Shown here: positions 33,593 through 63,003 of the stretch, piece by piece
How the letters are laid out: each line of letters begins with the position of its first letter
Position numbering within the stretch: the stretch's first letter is position 1
NCBI RefSeq assembly: GCF_900607235.1
Contig: NZ_LR027849.1
Location: 372,001-436,000, forward strand
Length of the DNA: 64,000 nt
Source: Olivibacter jilunii
GTDB taxonomy: Bacteria > Bacteroidota > Bacteroidia > Sphingobacteriales > Sphingobacteriaceae
Direction of reading: 5' to 3'
The notes under the pieces: model-generated
What the model saw: the letters and a program-made list of their open reading frames with translations, nothing else
What the model was told of the DNA's origin: nothing
The model's database searches: none
Made by a program: the position numbers and the translations under genes

Positions 33593-33681
33593 AAGGTATG
33601 TATATATGATAAAAATCAATCTTCGGTACACATGGTGGCGCTTGTATAGGAAAACTTATTGGACCACTTTCTCTAAAATAA

Positions 33682-40418: not shown

Positions 40419-40553
40419 AGTTTTGCTGTTTAATCTTGATATCAAAGGTACTCCGCTGTCTTCAACACGTGGATGATTTACCTCAACCTTACAAATGATT
40501 ATCGTCACATTGATAAAAGGGGCGTTTTGCTTGAAAAGAGAAGAAAGCTATTA

Positions 40554-40565
40554 TGATTAAAATCA
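40554..40565. promoter_or_regulatory. FNR-like box 1
   Basis: TGATTAAAATCA is an exact TGAT-N4-ATCA, extended to the palindrome TATGATTAAAATCATA (40552-40567). It lies between adhP (40418) and the universal stress protein (40639). A -7 element TAGCTTTG is at 40611-40618 on the plus strand. Confidence 0.65.
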
Positions 40566-40638
40566 TAGTCTATTATGTCGTTCATCATCCGGGATACCTG
40601 ACAACTTACATAGCTTTGCTTGAAATAAAATGATCATT

Positions 40639-41469
40639 ATGGAAACTTTATTAATCGCAACAGACTTCTCAAAAGCTGCCAATCACGCGGCTATTTATGC
40701 GGCACATTTAAGTAACCAGTTGGAAGCTAAACACCTAATATTATACCACTCTTATGAACTGCTTCCTACTACTGCTGATATCCCAGAGAGCATTGCACTG
40801 TCTGATGGCCGACTGCATGAACGTAGTTTGGATCTGCTCGACGAATTAAAACGCGAATTTATACAGACCTTGGATCCGCATACGAAAATTACCCTAGTAG
40901 CGAACTCGCTAAACATGGAACAGGGAATCAATAACCTAGCAGTAGAACACGGCGTCAATTTGGTTGTGATTGGGTTGTCTGGTAAAAATACCTGGGAGAA
41001 ACTGCTGGTGGGTAGCAGTACAAAGTCCCTATTAAAAAATTGCCACTTACCTTTATTAGTCGTACCGGTCAACGCTGCCTTTCAACCAATTGATAAAATT
41101 GTTCTCGGTTGTGATCTGGAAGACGTCGCTGAGACCATACCGATTGAAAAACTTAAGTATCTAATAGGGAAGTTGAACGCCCAGCTGCTGGTAGTGCATG
41201 TAGACCATAAAGAGGAAGAGCATTTTGATGCCGATATGATCCGCGAACAATATGACTTTTATGATTTGTTCGAAGATTTTAATGCATCTATTCATTATAT
41301 AGATAATAGAAATATTGATAAAGGAATTCTTAGCTATACTGAAAATCATCAAGCGCAGATGATTATCGTAATAGCGAAGAAACATTCGTTTATAGAAAGA
41401 ATTACCAAGGAAAGTATTTCTAAGAAATTAGCTGCAAAAACGCGGGTTCCCCTGCTGATTATCCGTTAA
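40639..41469 (+). CDS. Universal stress protein, two-domain (UspA family)
   Basis: 276 residues; the ATG at 40639 was chosen because the paralog at 53879 starts the same way ('METxLxATDFS'). Two Usp domains: residues ~1-145 and ~150-276. Domain 1 has the full ATP-binding motif G-2X-G-9X-G-S in 'GLSGKNTWEKLLVGSST'. The second domain ends 'KLAAKTRVPLLIIR'. Usp proteins bind nucleotides and help cells survive starvation, low oxygen and other stress in the cytoplasm. A P-type ATPase gene follows by 93 nt. Close paralogs: 53879 and 58357. Confidence 0.93.
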   Translation: METLLIATDFSKAANHAAIYAAHLSNQLEAKHLILYHSYELLPTTADIPESIALSDGRLHERSLDLLDELKREFIQTLDPHTKITLVANSLNMEQGINNLAVEHGVNLVVIGLSGKNTWEKLLVGSSTKSLLKNCHLPLLVVPVNAAFQPIDKIVLGCDLEDVAETIPIEKLKYLIGKLNAQLLVVHVDHKEEEHFDADMIREQYDFYDLFEDFNASIHYIDNRNIDKGILSYTENHQAQMIIVIAKKHSFIERITKESISKKLAAKTRVPLLIIR

Positions 41470-41562
41470 TGAACTTATCGAGTCTATATTTGTTTTTTGT
41501 AAGATTGATCGTTACTACCGGAGTGATGGTTGAAAACACAGACTCGATTCAATAGTTAATTT

Positions 41563-44088
41563 ATGAATGCTACAAATTCTGAAATAGAAACAAATGCTAA
41601 CCAATACGGTTTTCGTGGTTTGACAGCAACTGAAGTTGTTGAGCAACGACAGCGTGGGGGAGAAAATAGTATTGAACAACAAAAGGAGCGTGGCTTGATT
41701 CATATAGTAATTCAACTGTTGAAAGAACCGATGGTACTCCTTTTATTGTTAGCTTCTGCCGTATATTTTGTGAGTGGAGAGAAGGCAGATGCGATATTCC
41801 TGTCAGTTTCTATTGTGCTTATCAGTGTCATTTCCATATTTCAGGATTCGAGAAGTAGAAAGGCAATCGCGAAATTGAAACAGATCACAGCTCCCAAAAG
41901 CAAAGTCATTCGTTCCGATGGAGTTGTCATAATTGACAGTAAAGAACTTGTTCTGGGCGATTACCTGATAGTTGAAGAAGGGAATACCATTGCTGCAGAT
42001 GGTAAAGTACTCCGTGCACATGATTTTTCTGTAAACGAATCCATTCTTACCGGTGAATCTTTAGCGGTTTATAAGGACGGAGCTGCAGATGATGCCTATG
42101 TTTTTCAGGGAACAAACGTGGTAAGCGGTTCTGCAGTTGCCTTAGTAACAGCAGTTGGGGAACAAACTACACTTGCCAAAATAGGAAAAAGTATCGACCA
42201 TATAGCGGTTGAAAAAACACCACTAGAGAAGCAAGTCGAATCATTTGTAAGAAAAATGGCTTATGTAGGCGTTTCGGTATTTTTGCTTGTTTGGTTTATA
42301 AATTATTTAAAATCGCTCACCATTCTGGATAGTCTACTTAAGGCTTTGACTTTAGCCATGAGTATTTTACCAGAAGAAATTCCGGTTGCATTTACTACAT
42401 TTATGGCCCTGGGTGCATGGCGATTGATGAAGAACGGCGTGTTAGTTAAGCAGATGAAGACTGTGGAAGCTTTGGGAAGTGCAACTGTGATATGTACGGA
42501 TAAAACAGGAACACTCACGGAAAATAAAATGAGCTTGATAGACCTGTATACTTGGGATGAAGACAAATACTATGGTATAGAGGACCAAAAGCTAGGTGAA
42601 TCCGCAAAGAAACTGTTAACCGCGGCTATGTGGGCCAGTGAAATTGTTCCGTTTGATCCCATGGAAAAAGCAGTGCATGAGCAGTATGCGAAGGCGATTG
42701 ATTTGGATGAACGCCCGTTATTTCATATGGTATATGAATATCCAATAGAGGGTGTGCCACCAATGATGACGCATGTGTTTGAAAACGAACAAGGCCAGCG
42801 TATTATAGCAGCCAAAGGTGCACCCGAGGCCTTTTATGCGATCGCCAATTTTACTAATGAAGACAAATTGAGACTCGAAGGTGCCATAGAGCGTCTGGCG
42901 TCTAAAGGTTATCGCTTATTAGGTGTTGGCGTTTCTCATTTTCCGGGAAATGAATTCCCGGAAAAGCAACAATCATTGCTATTTGAATTTGTTGGATTAA
43001 TTGCCTTTTATGATCCGCCAAAAAGAAATAGCAAGGAGGTGCTTAAACAGTTCTACAATGCAGGAATTAAGGTTAAACTTATTACAGGCGATAATGCGAT
43101 AACCACTTTGGCAATTGCGGAGAAGATAAACTTCAATGGTCGAGAACGGCATATCACAGGTGCCGATTTATTACAATTACAGGAACCGGCGTTAACAAAG
43201 GCCGTAATGGACAATCAGATCTTTACACGCATGTTTCCTGAAGCGAAACTAAAAGTAATGGAAATTCTAAAGAATAACCGGGAGGTTGTTGGTATGGTAG
43301 GTGATGGGGTAAACGATGGACCGGCCTTACGAGCGGCTCATATCGGTATTGCCATGGGCAGAAAGGGTTCCGAAATTGCAAAGGAAGCTGCCTCGTTGAT
43401 ATTACTGGAAGATGACTTATCCAAAATGGTCACAGCAATCGCCATGGGAAGGAAGATTTATACTAACTTGAAAAAAGCAATACAGTATATTATTTCCATC
43501 CACATTCCTATTATACTGGTTGTGCTTGTCCCGTTGGTGCTTGGGTGGGTATATCCGACTATTTTTTCTCCTGTACATGTTATCTTTTTAGAATTAATTA
43601 TGGGGCCAACTTGCTCCATTGCTTATGAAAATGAACCCATGGAGCCGAATACTATGCAGCGGAAACCTCGCCCGTTAACACAAACCTTTTTTACGTGGAA
43701 AGAGTTGGGCACCAGTATTATCCAAGGTTTGGCGATTACCCTTGGCATACTGGGGATTTATTTGTTTGGTGTCCATGCCGGGTTGGGAGAGACAGGCGTT
43801 CGTACCATCGTTTTTCTTACACTTATAACGGCGAATATCACATTAACTTTGGTGAACCGTTCTTTTTATTACTCATTTATTGCGGTTTTGAAGTACAGGA
43901 ATGTGCTAATTCCCTGGATTATATTGGTTACTGCCCTTGTGGTTTTATTGCTTTTAACGATACCGCCCCTGCGCTCCTTTTTTGGCTTTCAAAACCTATC
44001 CATAGCGCAACTCTTATTGAGTGCAATCGTAGGTTTTTTTAGCGTATTGTGGTACGAATTAATCAAGTGGTATAAACGAACCTATTAG
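41563..44088 (+). CDS. P-type cation-translocating ATPase (PEEIP type)
   Basis: 841 residues. Phosphorylation site 'VICTDKTGTLTENKMSLID', TGES in 'SILTGESLAVYKD', hinge 'MVGDGVNDGPALRAAHIGIA'. Membrane helices ~55-80, ~85-105, ~235-255, ~265-290, ~650-690 and four near the C-terminus. The M4 motif is 'MSILPEEIPVAFTTFMALGA', not the PEGL of typical Ca2+ pumps; M6 contains 'IFLELIMGPTCSIAYENEP'. It is a type II-like pump whose ion (Ca2+, Mg2+ or other) cannot be fixed from this. Likely cotranscribed with the preceding universal stress protein under FNR-like box 1. The DosR regulon also pairs Usp genes with an ATPase (CtpF). Confidence 0.93.
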   Translation: MNATNSEIETNANQYGFRGLTATEVVEQRQRGGENSIEQQKERGLIHIVIQLLKEPMVLLLLLASAVYFVSGEKADAIFLSVSIVLISVISIFQDSRSRKAIAKLKQITAPKSKVIRSDGVVIIDSKELVLGDYLIVEEGNTIAADGKVLRAHDFSVNESILTGESLAVYKDGAADDAYVFQGTNVVSGSAVALVTAVGEQTTLAKIGKSIDHIAVEKTPLEKQVESFVRKMAYVGVSVFLLVWFINYLKSLTILDSLLKALTLAMSILPEEIPVAFTTFMALGAWRLMKNGVLVKQMKTVEALGSATVICTDKTGTLTENKMSLIDLYTWDEDKYYGIEDQKLGESAKKLLTAAMWASEIVPFDPMEKAVHEQYAKAIDLDERPLFHMVYEYPIEGVPPMMTHVFENEQGQRIIAAKGAPEAFYAIANFTNEDKLRLEGAIERLASKGYRLLGVGVSHFPGNEFPEKQQSLLFEFVGLIAFYDPPKRNSKEVLKQFYNAGIKVKLITGDNAITTLAIAEKINFNGRERHITGADLLQLQEPALTKAVMDNQIFTRMFPEAKLKVMEILKNNREVVGMVGDGVNDGPALRAAHIGIAMGRKGSEIAKEAASLILLEDDLSKMVTAIAMGRKIYTNLKKAIQYIISIHIPIILVVLVPLVLGWVYPTIFSPVHVIFLELIMGPTCSIAYENEPMEPNTMQRKPRPLTQTFFTWKELGTSIIQGLAITLGILGIYLFGVHAGLGETGVRTIVFLTLITANITLTLVNRSFYYSFIAVLKYRNVLIPWIILVTALVVLLLLTIPPLRSFFGFQNLSIAQLLLSAIVGFFSVLWYELIKWYKRTY

Positions 44089-44107
44089 AAACTGTTTTGG
44101 TAGAAAA

Positions 44108-45166
44108 TTAATTGTGCATTTTTCTTAATTTATCATAATTCAAAATGGAAATCCGATTGTCCTCGATCGTGATTAGCTTTTCTTGTTTGAAATCGCCCAA
44201 TGTGCGGATCAATGATTCTTTAGCGACACCGGCGATGGAAGCAAGGTTTTCCCTTGATAAATCAATATAAAAGGGGGAAGCCCTTTCCGCGTTGTATTTA
44301 TCATATAAGGTTATTAGGGAGTCGGCCACCTTTTTACGTAGGGAATTGTACGCTACCGCCAGTAATTGATTTTCGCTCATGTCCAGGTTTTCAGCTAAAA
44401 TATTGATAAACTTCCTCATCACCGCAAAATTACTGTTCAACAGTTCCTCAAAATCAGACTTAGGTATAAGTGCTAGTTCTGTATCTTCAAGTGCTTCAGC
44501 AGATTCTCGATACTCGCAGTTTTCAAGTAAGGCACGGTAACCTAAAAAATCACCCGCTTTATATAGGTTTATAATAAGCTCCTTTCCGTCTGTATTTCGC
44601 TTGAAAGTTTTTACTTTGCCTTTCAAAACATAGAATAAACGTGCGGGCTGATTCCCCTCTGAATAAATCAACTGTTTCTTTTTATACCTATTGATATTAC
44701 GACCTTCTTTAAGATCTTCCATGTAATCTCGTTCACCTAAGCTGCGCATCAATTGACTTACGCCATTTAAGTTAGGCTGCAATTTTTCTTTTAAAAACTC
44801 ACTTTTTTTTAGCCGGGCTTCTACCACGTTTAAAAGCTCTGTTCCATCAAAAGGTTTGGTTAAGTAATCATCGGCTCCCAGATCCATACCTTTTCGTACA
44901 TCCATTCGTTCGGTCTTCGCAGAAATGAAAATAAATGGAATATGATGCATAGGCATATGCTTGTGCAATAAATGGATAACACCATAGCCATCCAAAACAG
45001 GCATCATAATATCGCATATAATCAAATCTGGTTGATATTCTAAAGCTAGGGAAGCCCCTAATTTTCCATTTTCCGCAGTGTAAACTTTATAACCGGCAAG
45101 ATCCAAGATTTCAGCCATACTTTCTCTAATCTCTTGATTATCTTCGATGAGAACAATTTTTTTCAT
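44108..45166 (-). CDS. Response regulator fused to a Crp/Fnr module
   Basis: 352 residues with unusual domain order: CheY-like receiver (residues ~1-120; acidic pair 'IEDNQ', phospho-Asp in 'LIICDIMMPVLDGYG', Lys in 'DDYLTKPFDGTE'), then a cyclic-nucleotide-binding fold (~155-270; 'KKKQLIYSEGNQPARLFYVL', 'GDFLGYRALLENCEY'), then a Crp-type HTH (~290-345; 'ENLASIAGVAKESLIRTLGD'). The recognition helix keeps the Glu and Arg (E-x-x-x-R) used to read TGA. There is no FeS cysteine cluster. No histidine kinase is adjacent, so input could come from an orphan kinase. It sits in the middle of the stress island and is the best candidate to bind the TGAT-N4-ATCA boxes (inference). Convergent with the ATPase. 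Confidence 0.92.
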   Translation of the reverse strand: MKKIVLIEDNQEIRESMAEILDLAGYKVYTAENGKLGASLALEYQPDLIICDIMMPVLDGYGVIHLLHKHMPMHHIPFIFISAKTERMDVRKGMDLGADDYLTKPFDGTELLNVVEARLKKSEFLKEKLQPNLNGVSQLMRSLGERDYMEDLKEGRNINRYKKKQLIYSEGNQPARLFYVLKGKVKTFKRNTDGKELIINLYKAGDFLGYRALLENCEYRESAEALEDTELALIPKSDFEELLNSNFAVMRKFINILAENLDMSENQLLAVAYNSLRKKVADSLITLYDKYNAERASPFYIDLSRENLASIAGVAKESLIRTLGDFKQEKLITIEDNRISILNYDKLRKMHN

Positions 45167-45311
45167 GAGCGTATAGTTTGACCAATCATAAAAGCCATTA
45201 ACACTTACATGAATAGAGCGTTATTTTTAGAAAGTGTGTTTCAAGGGCTGTCAGTGGCTTTCGTAAATATAGATATTTTTGAAGACAATTAAGGTTACGA
45301 ATTGTTTTTGC

Positions 45312-46706
45312 TTAAACTGCATATAATACTTCTAATTGATCTTGTTTTAGGATCGTCACATCCCATCGCAATTTATCCTTAACCTTTACACGTAAGGCCT
45401 CTAAAGCACAGGGTTCACCATGATTCAGATATAATTTTATCGGTGCTTTATTGTTGCTGTATAGCCAGTCCATTAGTTCCTGTTGATCTGCATGGGCCGA
45501 CAGACCGGTAATTTCGTGAACCTTTGCAATTACCGGATAATATCCGCCGTGGATCTTTATTTCGTAAGCGCCATTCAATAATGCTCTCCCCCGGGTGCCG
45601 GCCGCTTGGAAGCCAATTAGCAGCACAATATTCCGGTCGTCGCCAAGATAATGTTTAAGGTACTCGAGTGCCCGACCTCCTGTAAGCATACCACTTCCGG
45701 CAAGAACGATTTTACTGCCCTTTTGTTTGATTATTCTCTCGGTACCACTGAAATCCTTATTGATGGTTATGCTGCTTAATACTTTTTGCCAATGCCGATT
45801 GGCAAGTGTCGTCCACTCCGGATAGTGCAGTAATACTTTGTTGGCTAAGGAGGCCATAGGGCTATCTAGAAAGATAGGAATTTCTTTAGGTATTTTTCGT
45901 TCTTGTTTCAATTGATATAGCAAAAGGAGGAGCTCTTGGGCCCGGCCTACTGCGAAGCAGGGGATTAATAAGTTGCCCCCTTGGGAGATTACTTCCCGAA
46001 CCATCGCGGTGAGCTGTTCTCCCGCATCTGAGTTTTCATGAAGCCGATCACCATAAGTGGCTTCCATAACAAGATAATCTGCCTCTCCAGGTGCTTGCGG
46101 AGAGGGAAGATAAGGTGTATGCCGGCGACCTAGATCACCCGAAAATACAATGTGTTTACCATAGCAGTTGAGCTTAATTGAACAAGCACCCGGTATATGT
46201 CCAGCCGGAAAGAACTGAAAATTTATGTAGTTATTTAGTTGGTACAGTTTGTTGAGTTCTACTGTTACAAATTGTTTTAGCGCCACTTCCACATCGGCAA
46301 TTGTATACAAAGGTTCAGCAAGTTTGTGCTTCGTATAGCCATGCACATTTGCTTTGTAAGCATCTTCTTCCTGTAATTTAGCACTATCACGTAAGATGAT
46401 TTCACATAGCTCCCGTGTAGGAGCACTCATGTAAATTTTGCCCTTATATCCATATTTTACAAGTAGTGGAATATAGCCCGTGTGGTCAAGATGAGCATGG
46501 GTGATAAGTAAATCATCAATTTTACTGGGATTAATAGGTGGATACTGCCAGTTTTTAGCTCGTAGTGATTTCAATCCTTGAAACAAACCGCAATCAATCA
46601 TAATGTTGAGTGACGGCGTACGCACGAGTAGTTTCGAACCTGTAACTGTTTCTGCTGCTCCAAAAGCCTGAAGCAATACAGCCTTTTTATTATCAATCGT
46701 AAGCAT
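45312..46706 (-). CDS. MBL-fold, beta-CASP metallo-RNase (YSH1/CPSF-like)
   Basis: About 464 residues from the Met at 46706; a Met at 46736 adds ten. MBL motif 'LLITHAHLDHTGYIPLLVKY' (HxHxDH), third ligand 'FPAGHIPGACSIKL', 'IVFSGDLGRR', beta-CASP blocks 'DYLVMEATYGDR' and 'IVLAGSGMLTGGRALEYL', and the terminal 'ITGLSAHADQQELMDWL' with the RMMBL part. These bacterial enzymes are exo- or endoribonucleases in the cytoplasm. An FNR-like box (46757-46768) is in the divergent gap with the HdeD gene, which implies that RNA turnover is adjusted in the stress state. Confidence 0.9.
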   Translation of the reverse strand: MLTIDNKKAVLLQAFGAAETVTGSKLLVRTPSLNIMIDCGLFQGLKSLRAKNWQYPPINPSKIDDLLITHAHLDHTGYIPLLVKYGYKGKIYMSAPTRELCEIILRDSAKLQEEDAYKANVHGYTKHKLAEPLYTIADVEVALKQFVTVELNKLYQLNNYINFQFFPAGHIPGACSIKLNCYGKHIVFSGDLGRRHTPYLPSPQAPGEADYLVMEATYGDRLHENSDAGEQLTAMVREVISQGGNLLIPCFAVGRAQELLLLLYQLKQERKIPKEIPIFLDSPMASLANKVLLHYPEWTTLANRHWQKVLSSITINKDFSGTERIIKQKGSKIVLAGSGMLTGGRALEYLKHYLGDDRNIVLLIGFQAAGTRGRALLNGAYEIKIHGGYYPVIAKVHEITGLSAHADQQELMDWLYSNNKAPIKLYLNHGEPCALEALRVKVKDKLRWDVTILKQDQLEVLYAV

Positions 46707-46756
46707 TAGCTCTATGTTTTTAATACAAAATTCCATAATAGCTTATAACTCCCTTA

Positions 46757-46768
46757 TGATAACGATCA
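46757..46768. promoter_or_regulatory. FNR-like box 2
   Basis: TGATAACGATCA is an exact TGAT-N4-ATCA; with its flank it reads TTATGATAACGATCAATA, which is a full TTGAT-N4-ATCAT on the other strand. It lies between the metallo-RNase (46706) and the HdeD gene (46840). Confidence 0.65.
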
Positions 46769-46839
46769 ATAGAATCCCTAATACCAGTCATATATATTGG
46801 CCACGATAAAGGCTAATTTTATTGCATAAAAGTCAAATT

Positions 46840-47433
46840 ATGGAACGCGATATCAAAAAATCTACACAGCTTAACAAGCGGATCTTAATCACCGGTATTT
46901 TATTGGTAATAATAGGGTTTTTAACTTTATGGCGCCCTTTTCAATCCTATTTGTTTATTAGCCTTAGCTTCTCCGTTTTGATCATTGTCAGTGGTGTCCT
47001 TGAGATACTATTCATCATACAACATCAAAAAATAATAAAGATGTGGTTGACCATGTTGGTGGGTGGAATCATCGATGTTACTATGGGGATATATTTGTTG
47101 CTATCACCATTGATTATGATGATTATACTTACACCTTTAATCAGCATTTGGGTATTTTACAAGGGCTTTACAGCATTGCGTTTCGCCCTGTTGCTTCGAG
47201 CGTACGCTTATCAAAGATGGTGGTTACAGCTTGCAATGGGTGTAGCAATTATGCTGATTTCCTTAATAATTGTTTCAAGTGCTACTGCGAGTTTTTTGCA
47301 GGTAATCGGTTTTCTCAATACCATCTCTTGGACCGGTCTGGGTATCGTTCTAATCGGTATCACCGCTATTTCTTTGTCCGTTGTTTATCGGAATACTGGT
47401 AGGCTTTTTCGGAGAGGATCGGATCAATCCTAA
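46840..47433 (+). CDS. HdeD/DUF308 family membrane protein
   Basis: 197 residues from the ATG at 46840 ('MERDIKKSTQLNKRILITGI'); a TTG at 46822 is less likely. Six hydrophobic helices arranged as DUF308 pairs: 'ILITGILLVIIGFLTLWRPF', 'LFISLSFSVLIIVSGVLEIL', 'WLTMLVGGIIDVTMGIYLLL', 'IMMIILTPLISIWVFYKGFT', 'LQLAMGVAIMLISLIIVSSA' and 'TGLGIVLIGITAISLSVVYR'. HdeD in enterobacteria supports acid resistance at high cell density; function here is inferred only as a membrane stress protein. A shorter paralog is at 57785. FNR-like box 2 is 72 nt upstream. Confidence 0.88.
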   Translation: MERDIKKSTQLNKRILITGILLVIIGFLTLWRPFQSYLFISLSFSVLIIVSGVLEILFIIQHQKIIKMWLTMLVGGIIDVTMGIYLLLSPLIMMIILTPLISIWVFYKGFTALRFALLLRAYAYQRWWLQLAMGVAIMLISLIIVSSATASFLQVIGFLNTISWTGLGIVLIGITAISLSVVYRNTGRLFRRGSDQS

Positions 47434-47444
47434 ATAGAAATGAG

Positions 47445-47762
47445 CTAGACCAATCGGTTCAAAAGCAGGATCATCAAAAATAACAGGAGATTCCCAATCG
47501 TACCATATTTTGCTTCTTTCCAAGCGCTTATTATCAAAAGTTGAGAGGTGAACATTGCAATAAAACACAGAATTTGCCAGCTACTTTGATGAATGTACAG
47601 AAGGATTGCGCTTGTGAGGAATAAGAGACAGCTCAACAGCCATCCGAGTCGGTGTAGGTTCGATTGAAAGGCCCGATGGGATAGAACAATCAGTACTTTT
47701 GAATAACCGAAGAGATGGATGGTGCCGTGAACCAACATCAGAATGATTAGTGTTGTTTTCAT
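47445..47762 (-). CDS. Small hydrophobic membrane protein
   Basis: 105 residues from the Met at 47762. Three to four membrane helices: 'LIILMLVHGTIHLFGYSKVL', 'LGWLLSCLLFLTSAILLYIH', 'QILCFIAMFTSQLLIISAWK' and 'TIGNLLLFLMILLLNRLV'. No family that I can name. The shape is like small DoxX- or DUF-type membrane proteins. Convergent with the HdeD gene and divergent from the universal stress protein at 48157, with FNR-like box 3 between. Confidence 0.7.
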   Translation of the reverse strand: MKTTLIILMLVHGTIHLFGYSKVLIVLSHRAFQSNLHRLGWLLSCLLFLTSAILLYIHQSSWQILCFIAMFTSQLLIISAWKEAKYGTIGNLLLFLMILLLNRLV

Positions 47763-48156
47763 TTCATTATTTTTTAGATGGTTTTCTTGTAGCAATCTTT
47801 AGCATTTATTGGTTAAAATCTTATTCAAAATCTTGAACCGTTGCAGCCTGGGCTGCTTGCTAATTTTATCGGAAAGATAGCGCTTGTGTTAAAAGATAGA
47901 TATGATTCCAATCAACTGCGATATTGATACGTATCATCTAGCATAAGCAGACCAACTGATACCTTTACACCTTCATATAAACGCACAGTATTGAACGATA
48001 TAAACTAACTTATCGTAACAAAGTACGGCCGTTTAAATGGCTTTTTGAACGCAGTTTCTTTCTTTGAGATCCATACTGTTGACAATCATGGGTAAGCATG
48101 ATTGATTTCACTGACAGAGCAAGATACCTTTACGAACTTTACCCTAAAAATATGTT
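47763..48156. other. Divergent promoter region with hairpins and FNR-like box 3
   Basis: No gene. Visible elements are a GCAGCCTGGGCTGC hairpin (47843-47856), FNR-like box 3 (47925-47936), an inverted repeat CAATCATG-N6-CATGATTG (48083-48104), and two GATACCTTTAC blocks (47959-47969 and 48124-48134) that are -7-like (TACCTTTA). Confidence 0.5.
47925..47936. promoter_or_regulatory. FNR-like box 3
   Basis: TGATACGTATCA is an exact TGAT-N4-ATCA and perfectly palindromic; with flanks TTGATACGTATCAT. A TACCTTTA element starts 24 nt after it on the plus strand (47960-47967), placing the box near -41 of a plus-strand start, as in class II Crp/Fnr promoters (inference). Confidence 0.68.
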
Positions 48157-49023
48157 ATGAGAACAGTGTTAGTACCTACCGATTTTTCTGCACCTGCTTA
48201 TAACGCTGCGTTGTACGCCGTAGAAATGGCGATAACGCTGCAGGCCTCTTTACATCTGGTACACGTAATGGAAGTCGCAGATAAAACACTTTTAGACACC
48301 CAGATTCTATGGCCCGTGCTTGATTATCAAGATGTAAAAGAAAAAGCCAATCAGCAGATGAACCTTTTGAAGCAACAGTTGAGGCTTCAAATTATAGAAA
48401 ACAATGCTGGGGAAAAGGTTTCTGTCACGTCTTCTTTAGTAGAAGGCGTGGTTTACCAAGAAATTGCCGAAGAAATAGTACGCAATGCAGCGATATTACT
48501 TGTGGCCGCAATGCATGGAGCGGGTAACGCCGAACGGTTTATTTTTGGAAGTAAAAGTAGGGACTTTATCAGGCACATTTCTTGTCCTGTTTTATTAATT
48601 CCACATAACTTTAAATACCGGAAAATTAATAAAATTGCTTTTGCAACCGACCTAAGTCCAAACGACATAGCCTTAATAGAATTATTGGCTAAATATGCCG
48701 AGCCATTTCATGCCGAAATAGTGATCAGTCACGTAACTACTGACGCTAATGATGGTCAGCATCAGCAACAGACTGAATCTTTCTTGCGGGAGGTCGCCGG
48801 TAAGAATAACTATGATAGAATTTATTATCGCTATTTATCGGGCCAAACCATTGAGGACGGCATTTTACGGCTATCAGAAAATGGCGAAGTGGATGTTTTA
48901 ACCATGGTTCATAGACCGGAAAGCGGCTTGGCTAAACTATGGCAGAGAAGTCATACAAAACAAATCGCGAAGCAAATAAAAATTCCGTTGTTGGTGCTAA
49001 AAGGCGCATCTATTAATTACTGA
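48157..49023 (+). CDS. Universal stress protein, two-domain
   Basis: 288 residues: 'MRTVLVPTDFSAPAYNAALY' opens domain 1 and 'INKIAFATDLSPNDIALIEL' opens domain 2. The nucleotide loop is 'AAMHGAGNAERFIFGSKSRD', with the first Gly of the ATP motif replaced by Ala. Ends 'IAKQIKIPLLVLKGASINY'. Distinct subgroup from the METxLxATDFS paralogs. Its promoter region holds FNR-like box 3. Convergent with the universal stress protein at 49027; the stop codons are 3 nt apart. Confidence 0.92.
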   Translation: MRTVLVPTDFSAPAYNAALYAVEMAITLQASLHLVHVMEVADKTLLDTQILWPVLDYQDVKEKANQQMNLLKQQLRLQIIENNAGEKVSVTSSLVEGVVYQEIAEEIVRNAAILLVAAMHGAGNAERFIFGSKSRDFIRHISCPVLLIPHNFKYRKINKIAFATDLSPNDIALIELLAKYAEPFHAEIVISHVTTDANDGQHQQQTESFLREVAGKNNYDRIYYRYLSGQTIEDGILRLSENGEVDVLTMVHRPESGLAKLWQRSHTKQIAKQIKIPLLVLKGASINY

Positions 49024-49026
49024 AAA

Positions 49027-49869
49027 TTACGAAATAGGTTCACCTGCTGTTTCCTTTATCTTGCTAAAGATTAGCATAGGGACCTTTGGATGAAAGGCCA
49101 ACTCCTCTGCTAAAATTGACGGGAACAACTTTTCTAAGAAAGACCGATTTTGCCGGGTAAATAATACCAGCACGGAAGGCTTAAGGCGATCTACTTCTTT
49201 CAATAATTGTGTAATGAAAGATTGAAGTATATCTTTTTTTGTAATGTGAAAATCAACCGGATAAGCTGTTGATTTGGTATACGGGGCAGTAGATACGTCT
49301 TCAGGTGTGCTCGTCAAATGTAGCACATCTAAGTTTGCTTTGAACCGCTCAACAAATGTTAAAACCTCTTGTATTTCTCTTTTATAGTCTTGCAGATCTG
49401 AAGCATAGAGTACGCTCTTTAACGGTGTCGGCCGGTAATTTGTGGGGACTACAAAGACCGGAATACAGGATTTGGTAACAAGGTTGCCGGTATTTGTGCC
49501 CAAGCGTCTGCTTAGTCCGCTAGCGCCCCGTGTACTGATTGAAATGTGAGTGATGTCTGTACTCTTAGTGCAAAACCGTAGAAGGGCGAGATCTGCTCGT
49601 AGCCCACTGATAACAGTACAGTCGTATAATTTGGGCTTAACTCCCATTTCTTGGTAACAAGCCTCAACAAAGTTTTTTAAGGATAGCGACTGCTCATCTT
49701 TATTGATACCGAAATGTTCGTATGACATGTTCGGGTCGGTTTTATATACAATCGGTGCCACATAGATAAATAGCAGACGAGTATCTGTATAAGCTGCTAC
49801 GTTAATGGCAAAACGGATTCCTCCTTTGGAGTTTTCCGAAAAGTCGGTCGGAACTAAAATGGTGTCCAT
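49027..49869 (-). CDS. Universal stress protein, two-domain
   Basis: 280 residues from the ATG at 49869 ('MDTILVPTDFSENSKGGIRF'); an in-frame Met 27 codons upstream would add an unlikely hydrophobic leader. Subgroup shared with 60977: both have 'FSENSKGGIRFA'/'LSSNSKGGIRFA' starts, a 'VLYASDL' domain-2 start, and an 'LFTRQNRSFLEKLFPS' block near the C-terminus. The nucleotide motif is degenerate ('STRGASGLSRRLGTNTGN'). Divergent from the universal stress protein at 50129; the gap holds a one-mismatch FNR-like box. Confidence 0.9.
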   Translation of the reverse strand: MDTILVPTDFSENSKGGIRFAINVAAYTDTRLLFIYVAPIVYKTDPNMSYEHFGINKDEQSLSLKNFVEACYQEMGVKPKLYDCTVISGLRADLALLRFCTKSTDITHISISTRGASGLSRRLGTNTGNLVTKSCIPVFVVPTNYRPTPLKSVLYASDLQDYKREIQEVLTFVERFKANLDVLHLTSTPEDVSTAPYTKSTAYPVDFHITKKDILQSFITQLLKEVDRLKPSVLVLFTRQNRSFLEKLFPSILAEELAFHPKVPMLIFSKIKETAGEPIS

Positions 49870-50006
49870 AAGAATATTTTTAAGAGTTATTTGAATAAAC
49901 TGTATAACGCGAAGTAAGTACATAAAAGGCGAGGAAACTATGATCTTCATAAGTACAATAAATGATTGTAGACATTAGTTGGTGTTCCAAACATATCACA
50001 ATATAA

Positions 50007-50018
50007 TGAGCGCAATCA
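50007..50018. promoter_or_regulatory. FNR-like box 7, one mismatch
   Basis: TGAGCGCAATCA differs at one position from TGAT-N4-ATCA. It lies in the 259-bp gap between the divergent universal stress protein genes at 49869 and 50129. Weaker than the others on its own, but placed as they are. Confidence 0.4.
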
Positions 50019-50128
50019 TCTTTGGCGGTTATCCAAATCATTCAAAAAGCGGAAGAAGTAAAGGAAATTTGAATTCGGTATGCTCCATTGTACAAATGGA
50101 AAAATTAACGAGGTAAAATGAATTAAAC

Positions 50129-50932
50129 ATGAAGAATATTCTCTTGATGATTGATGTTGCGAACAAAAAAGACAATGTTTTGCAATACGCGTTAAAACTA
50201 GCGCAAAGCTTGAAATCCAATATGATCTTATCCTGTATAATTGACGACAGAACGGCTAATTATGCACAGGCTTTTTCCGAATTGGAAAAAATTAAGGAGG
50301 ATCTGAAAGGTCATTGGGTGGCTACGGATTTCAAACCGGTAATTACAAGCTTGGTTGAGCGGGGTGTTTTTGCAGAGACCATGTTTAACTTGGTTAAGGA
50401 TCTGCATATTGAACTCATTTTAATGGGAGCGGCAGACGGTAAAAACACAACAGGGTTTTTATTTGGTAAAAAGGTAAGAGAAATTGTCGATAAGATAAAT
50501 TGTCCCATCCTGATCATTCCAGAGCAGGTCGTTTTTGAGGGTTTAAAAAATATACTCTATGTAACTGATCTCAGGTACACGGATTTTAAAATCGTAATGG
50601 AGTTAGCTAAGCTCTCGGAACCGCTACATGTAAAACTATCTATGTTACATGTATGTGCAGAAGGTTTGCCGGATCTGACCGAAGATGTCATTGAATCTTT
50701 GTTTACGGAAACCATATCTTCGCGGGTTAAACAACGTATACGTATATTCAACGCTGGTAAGCATGGCCACGCGGAAACGATCATCAACCGATTGATGACT
50801 TCGGAGGACCAGGGAATGTTGGCAATTGCACATCGTAAGCATCATTTCTTCGCTCATCTATTTTCTGATAAACCGGCTGAGGGTGCAGAAGTTTATAAGC
50901 GCGTGCCTATTTTACTAATGCCGGTGGCCTAA
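50129..50932 (+). CDS. Universal stress protein, two-domain
   Basis: 267 residues. Domain 1 starts 'MKNILLMIDVANKKDNVLQY' and domain 2 'LKNILYVTDLRYTDFKIVME'. The loop that would bind ATP reads 'GAADGKNTTGFLFGKKVREI', lacking the final Ser/Thr, so nucleotide binding is uncertain. Ends 'YKRVPILLMPVA'. Not a close paralog of the other six. It is convergent with the frameshifted Ca2+-type ATPase (25-nt gap). Confidence 0.88.
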   Translation: MKNILLMIDVANKKDNVLQYALKLAQSLKSNMILSCIIDDRTANYAQAFSELEKIKEDLKGHWVATDFKPVITSLVERGVFAETMFNLVKDLHIELILMGAADGKNTTGFLFGKKVREIVDKINCPILIIPEQVVFEGLKNILYVTDLRYTDFKIVMELAKLSEPLHVKLSMLHVCAEGLPDLTEDVIESLFTETISSRVKQRIRIFNAGKHGHAETIINRLMTSEDQGMLAIAHRKHHFFAHLFSDKPAEGAEVYKRVPILLMPVA

Positions 50933-50957
50933 AGTAGGCCATCAAATCTCTCTTTGG

Positions 50958-53595
50958 CTAGCTTTTCTCTTGCTGAACCCGTAGCATCTTAACGAGTTCG
51001 GTAATCAACAGCGGAAAAAAAGAGAATAGTAAGGCAACTGCCCAATCTGTCCAACTGAGTAGTTCTAGATGAAATGCTTCTCGTAGAAAAGGTATCATGA
51101 TAGCAGTCAATTGTAGAATAAAACCTGTTATAATTGCATATACAAGGTATTTATTAAAAAGAAGGCTAAGTCTGAAAAGATGTTTTCGTTTACTTCTAAG
51201 GGATAAGGCATAAAGCAATTGACTTCCAACAAGTACGATAAATGCCATGGTTTGGGCATAAGATAAAATTTCGTCGTCTTCAACGTTGTTAAATGGGCTT
51301 GCTTCATTAATGTAAAAGCCATAGTAAAAGGCAAATAAGGCGTTCAGGCCAATAAGCAACCCGCCCCAAAAAACTTGAGTCGTCGCACCACCGGAAAAGA
51401 AACTTTCCCGAAGCCGTCTTGGTTTAGCTTTCATGACTTCGGGATTGGAAGGGTTCATCCCCAAAGTAACTGCAGGCAACGAGTCTGTAATTAAATTAAC
51501 CCACAATAGCTGCGTTGCTAATAATGGGGTTGGCCAACCAAGTAGTAAGCTAAAGACTAATGTGAAAACTTCGCCCAGATTGCAAGAAAGCAAAAAAGAT
51601 AACCGATTTCTTAATGTTGTTATAAATGTTTCGGCCTTGCTCAACAGCTGTGATGATAGTAGCATAGTTGTCATCTGTTAACACCATGTCGGCGGCACTT
51701 TTAGCCACATCTGTTCCGGTTATACCCATCGCTACTCCAATGTCCGCCGCCCTCAACGAAGGGGCATCATTGACTCCGTCGCCCGTCATTGAGACAATGT
51801 TTTTACAACGTTTCAGCGCATTGACTATTTTAACTTTATGTTCCGGCGAAACGCGAGCAAACACACGGTATTGCATAACCTGTTTGATAAATTCTTCCTC
51901 AGAAAGCCTGTCAATTTCTTGTCCGGTAATAACCTCTTCCATTTTATTAGCTATCCGTAGCTGGTGAGCAATGGCGAAAGCTGTTTTTTTATGATCGCCG
52001 GTAATCATGACCGTTATGATACCCGCACTTTTTGCTTTTTGTACTGACAATACCGCCTCTTCTCTTAGCGGGTCAATCATGCCTACAAAACCCAATAAGA
52101 TTAAGTTTTGTTCTAGATCTTCGGGTTTAACTTTATTCGAATCTATTGATTTATAGGCGGCGCTCAACACCCGCAATGATTGATTAGACATGTTTTCCGC
52201 GAATTCGCGATAAAACTGTTTTTTTTCATCATCCAAAAGTTCTTTCTCCCCTCGTTCTGCTACAAAACGACATTTCTCCATAAGCTCATCTAGTGCCCCT
52301 TTTGTATATACAGTATAGGACCCGTTTTCTTCAACCACGGTTGACATCAATTTCCTGTCCGAATCAAAGGGTAACTCTGCAATACGTTTGTTGCTTTCGT
52401 ATAACGATTTGCGATTTATCTGAAGCTCATCTCCCCATTGCAGTAGGGCGATCTCGGTTGGGTCGCCTGTAACCTGTCCATCACCAACCGTGGCGTCCGA
52501 ACAGAGAATCATGGCTTTGGCCAAGGAAAGAGGATCGCCTTCTTTACCGTTGGAAAGACAATAATCAGTTACCTTCATACGGTTTTGAGTGAGTGTTCCC
52601 GTCTTATCTGAACAGATGATAGTTACCGATCCCAACGTCTCAACAGCTGACAGCTTGCGTATAATAGCGTTTTGTTTTGACATCCTGGTAACGCCTATGG
52701 AAAGCACAATTGCCACAATAGCTGCTAAGCCTTCCGGAATTGACGCTACTGCCAACGATACAGAAAGAAGAAACATATCCAGTAAGTTTCTCCCCTGAAC
52801 CATCGCAATCACAAATATCAACAAGCATACGCAGATAGCAATTCTTCCAAGAGTTTTTCCGAGATGTTCAAGGCGCTTTTCGAGCGGTGTTTTATGAGTT
52901 TCTTGACCTGTTATCAGATTGGCGATTTTTCCGATCTCCGTTTTCATACCAGTGGCCGTAACGATGCCTAATCCTCGCCCCGTACTTACTAAGGTTGACA
53001 TATATGCCATATTATAGCGATCCCCAAGTGGTGTTTGATGGTCATCTGTAATAAAGGAAGCGTCTTTTAAGCTAAGCACCGATTCGCCGGTAATAGCCGA
53101 TTCATCGATTTTGAGGTCAATCGTTTCCAATAAGCGAATGTCAGCAGGGACGCTTCGCCCTACTTCCAGAATCACAACATCCCCGGGAACAAGATCCTTT
53201 GCGTCTATTTCCGTTGTTGTATTTTCCCTTTTAACAATTGCCCTCGGTCGACTAATCTTCTGAAGTTCTTCAATGGCATTACTTGCTTTAATCTCTTGGA
53301 ATACGCCTAATAGTGCGTTTAATATAATGACGCATAGAATAATAACGGCATCAACATACGCTCCAACAAAAACAGTTATTAAGGTGGCGGCAAACAGGAT
53401 ATAAATTAACCAATCTTGGAGTTGCGTAAAGAAGAGTCTTAAAACGGTCTTTCTTTTTTCTTTTTGAAGCTCATTGACGCCGGTTTTGTTCCGTCTTAAT
53501 AAAACTTCTGCATTCGAGAGACCGGTTTGTTCGTCAACGTCAAGCGTTTTAAGAACCTCAGCCCTTTCTTTGAAAAACCACGTTGCTTCTTTCAT
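50958..53595 (-). pseudogene. PMR1/SERCA-like Ca2+ P-type ATPase with a frameshift
   Basis: Start at the Met at 53595 ('MKEATWFFKERAEVLKTLDV'). All catalytic motifs are before the break: 'SAITGESVLSL', 'IICSDKTGTLTQNRMKVTD', 'SIPEGLAAIVAIVLS' (M4 PEGL), 'MTGDGVNDAPSLRAADIGVA'. After 'NNIKKSVIF' an A6 run on the plus strand (51592-51597) carries one base too many, and the first frame stops about 15 codons later. Taking out one base gives 'NNIKKSVIFLLSCNLGEVFT', then 'LLWVNLITDSLPAVTLGMNP', the M5/M6 Ca2+-ligand helices, and a normal C-terminus. About 879 codons in total. It could be a real mutation, slippage-based switching, or a sequencing error. Confidence 0.88.
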
Positions 53596-53678
53596 TTTAT
53601 ATTTAAGAAAGTATTCCCCTTTTGTTGATTTATTACGCCTCTCAGTAACACTTGTTTGTTTGCGCATATAATGTAGAT

Positions 53679-53690
53679 TGATAACAATCA
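53679..53690. promoter_or_regulatory. FNR-like box 4
   Basis: TGATAACAATCA is an exact TGAT-N4-ATCA, extended TTGATAACAATCAT. It is 84 nt upstream of the Ca2+-type ATPase start at 53595, on its promoter side. Confidence 0.65.
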
Positions 53691-53796
53691 TCGTTAGCGG
53701 CTGTTTTAATCACCCTCATAAATAGACTTATAGGGAACCTCCCTACGATCTATAATTCGCGACAGACAAAATGCACAATACTCGGAGGCTAATTAA

Positions 53797-53808
53797 TGAT
53801 CAACATCA
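53797..53808. promoter_or_regulatory. FNR-like box 5
   Basis: TGATCAACATCA is an exact TGAT-N4-ATCA, 71 nt upstream of the universal stress protein start at 53879. Together with box 4 it gives each divergent gene its own site. Confidence 0.65.
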
Positions 53809-53878
53809 TATGAAGAACTGTTTTCGATTATCGTCCTTCCGATGGGCGGTAACTAAATTTAACTAAAATAATTAGATT

Positions 53879-54709
53879 ATGGAAACAATATTAGCTGCAA
53901 CGGATTTTTCACAACCGGCGACAAATGCTGCGCAATATGCCGCCCAGTTGTGTAAGCAACTTAAGGCGCGTTACTTGGTTCTCTATCATGCTTATAAATT
54001 ATTACCAATTTCGAGGGAAAATCCGGAAAGCATGATGTTATCTCAAGAAAAAATGCAAGAATGTATGGAGGTGTTTTTGAGTGAGTTACGAGAAAGCCTA
54101 TTGCCACTAGCACCCGAAAATACCTTGATTTTAACGAAAGCCGATTCCCGACCTTTAGAAACAGGGCTTGCAAATCTTGTTGAAACATGCGAGGCCAAAC
54201 TTATAATAATCGGTTCTGAAAGAGATGTATTGAAGAAATTGCTGGTAGGAAGCAGTACGAAGAAGCTCATGAAAACGACCCATTCGCCCATACTGGTGGT
54301 TCCACCGCAAGCAAAATTTAAAGCGATTAGGAAGATTGTAATGGGCTGCGATCTGAAAAACGTGGCAGACACTGTACCGATCGCCAAACTAATTCAACTG
54401 ATAAAGAGCTTTCAGGCACAACTGATGGTCGTTAACGTGGGGAAAAATGCGAAAGTACCTTTGGATGATCGCGAAGCATACGAACAACATACATTTTATG
54501 ATTTGTTTGAAGAGTTAGATCCATCCATTCAATATATAGAAGGGAATGACGTTAGCAAAGGACTTTTGGATTATGCCGATCAGTTTGATGCGCAGATGAT
54601 TGTTGTGGTAGCCAAACAGCACTCCTTGCTAGAGCGTATTACCAGCTCAAGTGTCTCAAAAGAGTTGGCCGCATCCGCTGAATTGCCTGTTTTAATAATT
54701 CGAAAATAA
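53879..54709 (+). CDS. Universal stress protein, two-domain
   Basis: 276 residues, close paralog of 40639: identical layout from 'METILAATDFSQPATNAAQY' to the end 'SKELAASAELPVLIIRK'. The nucleotide loop has changed to 'GSERDVLKKLLVGSST': the second Gly is replaced and the loop is one residue shorter, so ATP binding may be lost while the fold is kept. Box 5 is upstream and box 6 is downstream, before the PEP synthase gene. Confidence 0.92.
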   Translation: METILAATDFSQPATNAAQYAAQLCKQLKARYLVLYHAYKLLPISRENPESMMLSQEKMQECMEVFLSELRESLLPLAPENTLILTKADSRPLETGLANLVETCEAKLIIIGSERDVLKKLLVGSSTKKLMKTTHSPILVVPPQAKFKAIRKIVMGCDLKNVADTVPIAKLIQLIKSFQAQLMVVNVGKNAKVPLDDREAYEQHTFYDLFEELDPSIQYIEGNDVSKGLLDYADQFDAQMIVVVAKQHSLLERITSSSVSKELAASAELPVLIIRK

Positions 54710-54737
54710 TAGCGAGGGATATCTTTTGAAAGAGCCA

Positions 54738-54749
54738 TGATCATCATCA
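54738..54749. promoter_or_regulatory. FNR-like box 6
   Basis: TGATCATCATCA is an exact TGAT-N4-ATCA in the 120-nt gap before PEP synthase (54830). That gene begins a run of eight closely spaced plus-strand genes, so this box could control them all. Confidence 0.6.
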
Positions 54750-57268: not shown

Positions 57269-57314
57269 TAAGATTTCTTTCCTATAAATAACTTTATACT
57301 AAACAATAGAAAAC

Positions 57315-60980: not shown

Positions 60981-61813
60981 AAATCTTGGTTACAACGGAT
61001 TTATCATCTAATTCTAAAGGAGGAATACGCTTTGCTTTGCAACTTGCCGAGCACTATCAATATGAATTAACATTTTTTTATACCTATCACAACGAGAGAC
61101 CTACTTGGAATGACCTATCTTATAAAGGATTTCAAAACACTGAACTGCAAAATGAACGTATAAAATTGATAAGGTTTATTCGCAAAGTTGCCGGAAGCAT
61201 AGATCTTCAGCAGCTACAGCTTTATTATCACGTTCAAGAATCGCTGTTCGTTGCGCAGCACATTCTCCAGTATGCGCAGCTCCATCAATTTACATTTATT
61301 TGTATAGGTCGAAGCGCGGCCGGATGGCATCGAAAACTGTTTGGAAGTGTGGCTAATATATTAATAAAACAATCACATGTTCCTATCATCATTGTACCTC
61401 CTGATTATAGAAGAAGAAAACTCCGAAACGTATTATATGCTTCCGACTTAACGAATTTCGAAAGCGAGTTAAACATGGTGTTGGTTTGTATGGAAACCCT
61501 TAAGCTAAAAGTAGACATCCTTCACTTTTCGCTTCCCTCAGATCAGCTCAATAACAAAGTAGCCTCTGCAACAGAAATTATTTCTAAGCTGCCCCCCAAT
61601 ACTGTCCAATTTTTTCAAGAGAAGTACAATTTTGAGGAGCCTCTCGTAAAGCATTTAGCTGTACAGTTAGCCAAATTTAACCCCTCTATACTTGTTATGT
61701 TTACAGATCAGCAGCGCACCTTCTTTGAGAAATTGTTTCTCGGTAGTGACACTGTTTCATTTTCTTCGTTGGCCAAATGGCCAATGCTGGTTTTTCCGAA
61801 ACCGCTTACCTGA
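60977..61813 (+). CDS. Universal stress protein, two-domain
   Basis: 278 residues, same subgroup as 49027 ('MKILVTTDLSSNSKGGIRFA'). The nucleotide loop reads 'GRSAAGWHRKLFGSVANILI', lacking the second Gly. The C-terminal block 'MFTDQQRTFFEKLFLGSD' corresponds to 'LFTRQNRSFLEKLFPS' of the paralog. It overlaps the PfkB gene by four nt. Last gene of the tight operon; Hsp20 follows after 82 nt. Confidence 0.9.
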   Translation: MKILVTTDLSSNSKGGIRFALQLAEHYQYELTFFYTYHNERPTWNDLSYKGFQNTELQNERIKLIRFIRKVAGSIDLQQLQLYYHVQESLFVAQHILQYAQLHQFTFICIGRSAAGWHRKLFGSVANILIKQSHVPIIIVPPDYRRRKLRNVLYASDLTNFESELNMVLVCMETLKLKVDILHFSLPSDQLNNKVASATEIISKLPPNTVQFFQEKYNFEEPLVKHLAVQLAKFNPSILVMFTDQQRTFFEKLFLGSDTVSFSSLAKWPMLVFPKPLT

Positions 61814-61895
61814 TCAATCTCATTATGTCAAATAACCTAAATCATTAAGAATTATTTATTTAAGGAACTTAGTTATTATTTCTAAATTCAATATT

Positions 61896-62379: not shown

Positions 62380-63003
62380 ATGGACGTTCTGGATCAAATT
62401 GAAGAATTTAGGTATTCGCCGCAATTAAGAGAGATGTTGTATGCAAATAGCATACAGAAGACCTATAATGCAGGACATGTTATTTTAAGCGAACATGCGT
62501 ACATCCGTTCAATCCCTATTGTTACAAAGGGTACATTAAAGGTTATCCGTACAGAAGAAGACGGACGAGAGATTTTACTATATTACATCAAGGCCGGCGA
62601 AAGTTGCATCATGTCATTTTTAGGAGGACTTCACAACGAAACGAGTAAGGTTAGGGCCGAAGTGGAGGAAGACGCCGAAATTCGCTTCCTGCCCATGGAA
62701 AAGGTCTCATTGTTCATTAGAGAATACCCACAGTGGCTCGATTACATTTTTCGCCTCTATCACAAACGTTTTGAAGAATTACTGGATATGGTGAACGCAA
62801 TTGCGTTTAAGAAAGTTGACGAACGATTGCTAACGCTATTACGGAAAAAAAAAGAACTTTCGGGAAACAATATGCTGAGCATTACGCACGAGCAATTGGC
62901 GAACGAACTTGGTACCGCACGTGTGGTTGTTTCCAGACTTTTAAAACAGCTCGAAGACGATGGTACGGTAAAGCTCGGTAGAAATAAAATCGTTCTTGTG
63001 TAA
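62380..63003 (+). CDS. Crp/Fnr family transcriptional regulator
   Basis: 207 residues: jelly roll ('AGHVILSEHAYIRSIPIVTK', 'REILLYYIKAGESCIMSFLG') and a C-terminal HTH 'HEQLANELGTARVVVSRLLK'. There is only one Cys ('GESCIMSF'), so no FNR iron-sulfur cluster. The recognition helix has V where FNR has the Glu before S-R, so its DNA site probably differs from the TGAT-N4-ATCA boxes. It begins an operon with TauE and the MBL gene at the right edge; persulfide or sulfide sensing through that Cys is plausible (inference). Confidence 0.9.
   Translation: MDVLDQIEEFRYSPQLREMLYANSIQKTYNAGHVILSEHAYIRSIPIVTKGTLKVIRTEEDGREILLYYIKAGESCIMSFLGGLHNETSKVRAEVEEDAEIRFLPMEKVSLFIREYPQWLDYIFRLYHKRFEELLDMVNAIAFKKVDERLLTLLRKKKELSGNNMLSITHEQLANELGTARVVVSRLLKQLEDDGTVKLGRNKIVLV

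Follow-up and report, generated by a model that had tools for sequence, protein, structure and literature searches.

A directional two-dyad FNR-type operator precedes stress genes of Olivibacter jilunii and is likely read by a receiver-Crp regulator

Introduction

What kind of promoter, and which regulator, might lie behind the FNR-like palindromes that recur between the stress genes of Olivibacter jilunii? The stretch of DNA analysed here (the window) comprises 64,000 nt of this bacterium (contig NZ_LR027849.1, positions 372,001-436,000). A preliminary description of it had listed six exact TGATN4ATCA boxes and one near match, had assigned all of them to promoter gaps, one to each main divergent gap, and had taken them as the mark of a coherent regulon of universal stress proteins (Usp), ATPases and other proteins. 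FNR of E. coli has the Crp fold and a recognition helix with Glu and Arg (E..SR), which reads a dyad with a TGA core, and the dyad from which it activates lies near -41. Crp/Fnr activators with sites in tandem are also known. In the rhizobial FixL-FixJ-FixK system, FixJ has a DNA-binding domain of the LuxR type, and FixK is of the Crp type and has no receiver.

Results

The bare box is too frequent to mark a regulon

All six exact boxes (40554, 46757, 47925, 53679, 53797 and 54738) and the near match (50007) were found where the preliminary description had placed them, and the near match is also part of an operator according to the composite matrix described below. The list of six was correct but incomplete: scanning the window returned 10 exact matches, the additional four being located at 33607, 47903, 57232 and 58116. 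For comparison, 100 shuffles gave a mean of 1.70 matches and at most 5. The genome contains 282 matches in 6.70 Mb, hence 2.69 are expected per 64 kb, and the probability of at least 10 is 5e-4. Nine matches lie within 40.4-58.2 kb (probability of at least nine, 1e-7, for a stretch picked after the fact). The claim that all boxes lie in promoter gaps holds for the original six only if the Ca-ATPase gene starts downstream of its ORF start at 53691 (we read the start as 53667 or 53595), and it does not hold for box 57232, which is within the end of ppsA, or for box 58116, which is inside the HdeD-type ORF 57785-58345.

Promoter enrichment of the bare motif was analysed in a 400-kb sample of the same genome (20 stretches of 20 kb). 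Since 19 of the 23 matches were in ORFs, at an ORF coverage of 82%, bare TGATN4ATCA is no promoter mark in this sample. Such a frequency in coding DNA had been named beforehand as an argument against the regulon; it does speak against the bare motif, which we discarded as a regulon mark for its abundance and its lack of promoter enrichment in the sample, but it leaves the composite operator untouched. The extended form TTGATN4ATCAA, with one mismatch allowed, was also discarded (9 found versus 5.5 expected).

The boxes belong to a composite operator with fixed spacing

In the 65-bp composite operator, the dyad TGAnnnnnnTCA is followed after 22 bp by another dyad of this kind and, 23 bp further downstream, by the element TAnnTTTR. 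In the window, TAnnTTTR begins exactly 45 bp after the boxes 40554, 46757, 47903, 53797 and 57232, and the near match 50007 is followed, at the same distance of 45 bp, by GAAATTTG. In the whole genome, the pattern TGATN4ATCA-N30-60-TAnnTTTR has 24 matches, distributed over 31 possible gaps; the gap of 45 accounts for eight of them, five of which are in the window. In 80 named loci around relatives of the receiver-Crp gene (1.36 Mb), the histogram of gaps has spikes at 45 (28 matches) and 23 (9 matches), and no other gap occurs more than 3 times. The variant TGACN4GTCA showed the same two spikes in these loci (45, 10 times; 23, 12 times), and six other palindromes showed none.

The two spike gaps differ by 22 bp, the distance between the dyads. 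In 94 seeds picked by the distal dyad and the -7 element only, with the proximal TGA not required, the proximal TGA was present with T in 86, G in 84 and A in 89 sequences, and the proximal TCA with T in 89, C in 68 and A in 76. Pairs of TGAN6TCA at the 22-bp spacing numbered 162, versus 2.85 on average for the remaining spacings between 12 and 59. Because they are 22 bp apart, the two dyads lie on one face of the helix.

For the Bacteroidota -7 element, PMC7366714 quotes the consensus TAnnTTTG, and the -7 element of the operators fits the primary promoter consensus of the phylum by both sequence and spacing. With a transcription start assumed 11-12 nt downstream of the first T, the dyads would be centred at about -63 and -41. 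The proximal dyad lies directly upstream of the expected position of the -33 element. The boxes are real but make up half of a larger unit, and those in the window would belong to roughly twelve copies of a single promoter type of the Bacteroidota.

Operators of the stress island

A matrix was trained on 80 loci of other genomes, to which the genome under study contributed nothing, and was scanned on the window, the loci named below and the 400-kb sample; exact patterns were run genome-wide. The window contains 12 matrix matches scoring at least 17.7, all of them within 40.4-61.9 kb and none elsewhere (Table 1). Six Markov-shuffled windows (384 kb) gave one match of at least 16 and none of at least 18, the reversed window gave none of at least 12, the 400-kb sample none of at least 14, and 17 further loci of the same genome (85 kb) none of at least 18. 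In the training loci, 221 matches of at least 18 were found, in 69 of the 80 loci, versus one in the reversed control; these 221 matches come from the same loci that trained the matrix. Two matches to a wide pattern, C1:1142721 and C8:51138, were rejected with matrix scores below 16 (none of at least 16 in L212 and L209). These controls bear on the reading that the boxes are a chance product of AT-rich intergenic DNA and a common palindrome. The bare motif is indeed frequent, with 282 copies, and outside the island it lies mostly in ORFs of the sampled DNA; however, the fixed spacings of 22, 23 and 45 bp recur in independent loci, the 400-kb sample is free of matches, and the shuffled and reversed controls are near zero, which makes the contribution of chance practically negligible.

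Table 1. Composite operators and Crp-type regulator genes in the window
Feature	Coordinates	Strand	Matrix score	Remarks
Operator and -7 element before adhP (likely start 40419)	40443..40507	-	33.4	Exact pattern
Operator and -7 element before Usp gene 40639	40554..40618	+	33.7	Exact pattern
Operator before MBL/beta-CASP RNase gene (likely start 46706)	46726..46790	-	25.0	Dyad common with 46757..46821
Operator before HdeD-type (DUF308) gene 46840	46757..46821	+	30.2	Exact pattern
Operator before ORF 47445-47795	47872..47936	-	26.7	Both dyads of 47903..47967 read oppositely
Operator 190 bp before Usp gene 48157	47903..47967	+	30.3	Exact pattern
Nearer second operator before Usp gene 48157	48077..48141	+	22.9	
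Operator before Usp gene 49027 (likely start 49869)	49910..49974	-	22.7	
Operator before Usp gene 50129	50007..50071	+	24.8	
Weak candidate operator before Ca-ATPase gene, using the 53797 dyad	53766..53830	-	14.9	Below the set of twelve
Operator before Usp gene 53879 (then ppsA)	53797..53861	+	25.6	
Operator within the end of ppsA, before gene 57315	57232..57296	+	28.4	Exact pattern
Operator before Hsp20 gene 61896	61811..61875	+	17.7	Weakest of twelve
Receiver-Crp regulator	44108..45166	-		Pfam Response_reg, cNMP_binding, HTH_Crp_2
Small Crp-type regulator	62380..63003	+		Pfam; recognition helix without FNR-type Glu (alignment)

The targets of the operators in the window are adhP, the MBL RNase gene, an HdeD-type gene, five Usp genes, the Hsp20 gene and two small genes. 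The adhP operator had been missed earlier because its distal box is TGAC. In eight of the 12 operators, the -7 element ends 16-24 bp upstream of the likely start codon, and this distance suggests starts other than that of the longest ORF for adhP (40419), the MBL RNase (46706) and one Usp protein (49869). Because the unit is directional and stands at a fixed distance from its -7 element, divergent genes carry operators of their own, and the notion of one box per divergent gap has to be given up. The composite matrix assigns four of the six original boxes (40554, 46757, 47925 and 53797) to operators and leaves out the other two (53679 and 54738). The matrix detected no operator before ppsA, the P-ATPase gene at 41563 or the receiver-Crp gene; ppsA and the P-ATPase gene could be reached solely as second genes of operons. 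The idea of a coherent regulon is retained for a set of FNR-type sites over the island, for which the receiver-Crp protein is the likely binder.

Boxes 33607, 53679, 54738 and 58116 were rejected, as TAnnTTTR is absent 23 and 45 bp downstream on either strand. The top matrix score was -3.9 before gene 33703 for box 33607 and -10.4 before ppsA for box 54738. Two of the four, 53679-53690 and 54738-54749, are exact and lie in promoter regions of the island, yet do not fit the operator; at 53679 a half-like ATCA occurs 22 bp on, but the -7 element is absent. Seven genes with Usp domains were counted in the island (40.6-61.8 kb), four of which contain two Usp stretches that each pass alone. The Ca-type P-ATPase (50958-53691, - strand) is divided between the ORFs 51550-53691 and 50958-51674, which overlap in different frames, and is either a broken gene or a sequencing error.

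A receiver-Crp protein is the likely binder

Judged by its sequence, the receiver-Crp protein of the window (44108-45166) is likely to bind the operators. It contains PF00027 followed by PF13545, which places it in the Crp/Fnr superfamily, and its N-terminus carries, in place of the FNR-type Cys cluster, which is absent, a receiver domain (PF00072) with the phospho-acceptor Asp kept. This residue, Asp52, is shared by all 80 of the 80 relatives and by the C8 paralog; the C9 paralog has Asn instead. Residue 105 of the alignment is the Pro that follows the receiver Lys, the Lys column itself being uncounted. The recognition helix has Glu and Arg in 80 of 80 relatives and Ile for Ser likewise in 80 of 80, and reads ETISR in the C8 paralog. 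Altogether, the genome encodes three receiver-Crp paralogs (window, C8 and C9). Seven copies of the exact tandem pattern are present in the genome (reversed control, 0), five of them in the window and one each on C8 and C9, in both cases less than 10 kb from the receiver-Crp paralog located there.

Two other Crp-type proteins were considered. The small regulator at 62380 is unlikely to be the binder, as its recognition helix is without Glu. No close relative of a Cys-cluster FNR was found in this genome, the best match (5e-34) being the C8 receiver-Crp protein. The protein encoded at C8:307 kb (L253:429-1211) is more distant but also of the Crp/Fnr type; it has Cys residues at its N-terminus and an E..FR helix, and could possibly act as a second binder.

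The operator and the receiver-Crp gene co-occur

In the family (151 genomes), the exact tandem pattern was found in 100 of 109 genomes with receiver-Crp versus 13 of 42 without it (Fisher 1.5e-13, ignoring kinship and genome size). For the class (109 genomes, three of which are also in the family set), the corresponding numbers are 48 of 58 versus 14 of 51 (7e-9, again ignoring kinship and genome size). The reversed controls gave four matches in the 151 genomes and three in the 109. Receiver-Crp was scored as present at a best E below 1e-80 in the family and below 1e-58 in the class, where it is in two pieces in genome G206; the exact pattern is missing from 9 of the 109 and 10 of the 58 receiver-Crp genomes, respectively. 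Distances were counted for 150 listed family places, transcribed by hand, of which 135 belong to 43 receiver-Crp genomes. Seventy-five of these 135 are at most 25 kb from the receiver-Crp gene (about 1.3% expected), in 41 of the 43 genomes, and 60 are more distant. Among the places listed, 27 of the 43 genomes have an operator whose first base directly follows the matched receiver-Crp codons, and the first TGA of that operator is therefore the receiver-Crp stop codon.

Receiver-Crp is absent from 42 family genomes, 11 of which encode a close relative (E <1e-60) of a stand-alone FNR that bears a Cys cluster at its N-terminus; the cluster itself was seen in seven of the 11. The exact pattern is present in 7 of these 11 genomes versus 6 of the 31 with neither regulator, and in genome G024 it stands directly behind the Cys-cluster FNR gene. 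Genome G029 has both regulators, so they are not strict alternatives. The presence of the pattern in lineages whose stand-alone FNR has a similar helix would agree with real operators that are worked in O. jilunii by another Crp/Fnr-type protein, for instance the Cys-bearing one at C8:307458-308072, whose helix has Glu and Arg, the receiver-Crp genes being mere neighbours or sharers of the sites. However, that protein aligns with Cys-cluster FNR over residues 22-226 only, at 30% identity, and the small Crp protein at 62380 lacks the Glu. Each of the three receiver-Crp paralogs here has the exact pattern nearby, and across relatives the pattern clusters with the receiver-Crp gene. We consider another binder improbable and retain the receiver-Crp protein as the likely one.

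The kinase and the paralogous loci point to oxygen limitation

In 79 of the 80 named loci, a PAS kinase gene is located immediately upstream of the receiver-Crp gene. The receiver-Crp gene of the window has neither a kinase gene beside it nor an operator of its own (best matrix score -9.7), and the only close homologue of such a kinase in this genome is encoded on C8 (2e-85; next 6e-33). The C8 kinase has PAS, HisKA and HATPase_c domains, its top PDB match is FixL (6.9e-35), with LMPEPDRSRHDSYI common to both, and it appears to be of the FixL type. The order of the C8 locus is kinase, receiver-Crp, a short ORF of the 2-hydroxyacid dehydrogenase type, a HemN-like radical-SAM gene, CcoI-type ATPase and CcoNO. 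Operators precede the short ORF (matrix 18.0) and CcoNO (28.2). The short dehydrogenase-type protein (~141-143 aa) behind receiver-Crp was seen in L208:16222-16653, L160, L165, L172, L173 and L181; the gene in the same place in other genomes encodes about 325-346 aa. The neighbours of the C9 paralog (L210:10180-11235) are glycogen phosphorylase, amylase and GlgC genes. The receiver of this paralog is degenerate (Asn for Asp52; Response_reg 9e-4), and a strong operator (matrix 38.2) lies 240 bp upstream of the GlgC start.

Behind the operators of named relatives, 142 of 185 downstream proteins were scanned, near-duplicate loci, short ORFs and others dropped by hand, among them one out of range, being omitted. 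The commonest enzyme was ccoNO (19 of 142), alongside PAS kinases (18-19), Hsp20 (9), Usp (6), metal ATPases (5), DoxX (4) and hemerythrin/ScdA (3). Low oxygen as the signal of the island is favoured indirectly by the FixL-like kinase, the cbb3 oxidase and the HemN-like genes of the C8 locus. With the same operators and the same binder, the island could nevertheless respond to a different signal, through another kinase (redox, envelope or energy stress) or through unphosphorylated action. This would suit a regulator without an adjoining kinase gene, and the Asn that replaces the receiver Asp in the C9 paralog makes unphosphorylated action thinkable in the family. But the receiver-Crp protein of the window retains its Asp, the sole close homologue of the cognate-type kinase in the genome is FixL-like, and the same operators also precede ccoNO; we regard a signal other than oxygen as possible, if rather doubtful.

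Discussion

From the operator, its spacing and clustering, its co-occurrence with receiver-Crp and the domains of the proteins, all of which were observed directly, we infer binding, phosphorylation, activation and oxygen as the signal. The best explanation, to which we give a probability of roughly 0.7, is an oxygen-limitation regulon in which FixL-type kinases act via an FNR-type DNA-binding protein whose Fe-S sensor is replaced by a receiver. Low oxygen would activate the FixL-type kinase, which would phosphorylate the receiver of the receiver-Crp protein; two dimers of the phosphorylated protein would then bind, one at each dyad, and the one at the proximal dyad would bring RNA polymerase to TAnnTTTR promoters without a clear -33 element. 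Respiration and glycogen genes would be switched on, together with, in the window, the island of Usp, AdhP, Hsp20 and HdeD genes. The weakest step is the assumption that a distant kinase serves the receiver-Crp protein of the window and that the island is run by this protein and not by another paralog. Since the regulator of the window has no adjoining kinase gene, the choice among the three is the least certain point.

The proposed system would work like FixL-FixJ-FixK combined with FNR promoters, but it lacks what defines each of them, the Cys cluster on the one hand and separate FixJ and FixK proteins on the other. With E. coli FNR it shares the Crp fold, the TGA-core dyad, the Glu..Arg helix and a dyad near -41; it differs in the receiver that stands instead of the Cys cluster, in the two dyads at a fixed 22 bp and in the phylum-specific -7 element, and the outer T of the FNR site TTGATN4ATCAA is no feature of the operators described here. 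The rhizobial system resembles it in the kinase, which is by sequence a FixL-like heme-PAS kinase, in FNR-like boxes and in the targets (cbb3 oxidase, FixI-type ATPase and HemN-like enzyme), whereas FixJ and FixK are replaced here by one receiver-Crp protein, the DNA-binding domain of which is Crp-type and not LuxR-type as in FixJ. The stress regulons of Anr, FixK and DosR likewise place Usp and respiratory or stress genes under a regulator of oxygen limitation, but they belong to other phyla and have another promoter geometry, and DosR is a LuxR-type regulator.

We found nothing on a receiver-Crp/FixL regulon or on the present operator in Bacteroidota in the open-access literature, a search that leaves subscription journals mostly outside and does not establish absence from print. 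The operator offers a promoter code that is exact to the base and can be scanned for, in a group where little is known about promoters under activator control, and an oxygen-limitation regulon predicted from sequence alone. It also presents a case where a transcription factor seems to have changed its sensor and kept its DNA code. The odds appear even to us that the operator outlived a change of sensor, with lineages without receiver-Crp seeming to use Cys-cluster FNR on the same operator, and much of the class sensing oxygen limitation via a FixL-type kinase and receiver-Crp on a rigid two-dyad operator. Among the contigs analysed, one titled Azovibrio restrictus (a MAG; L061) contains a receiver-Crp locus nearly identical to that of a contig titled Bacteroides sp. 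(L064), and is probably a mislabelled bin.
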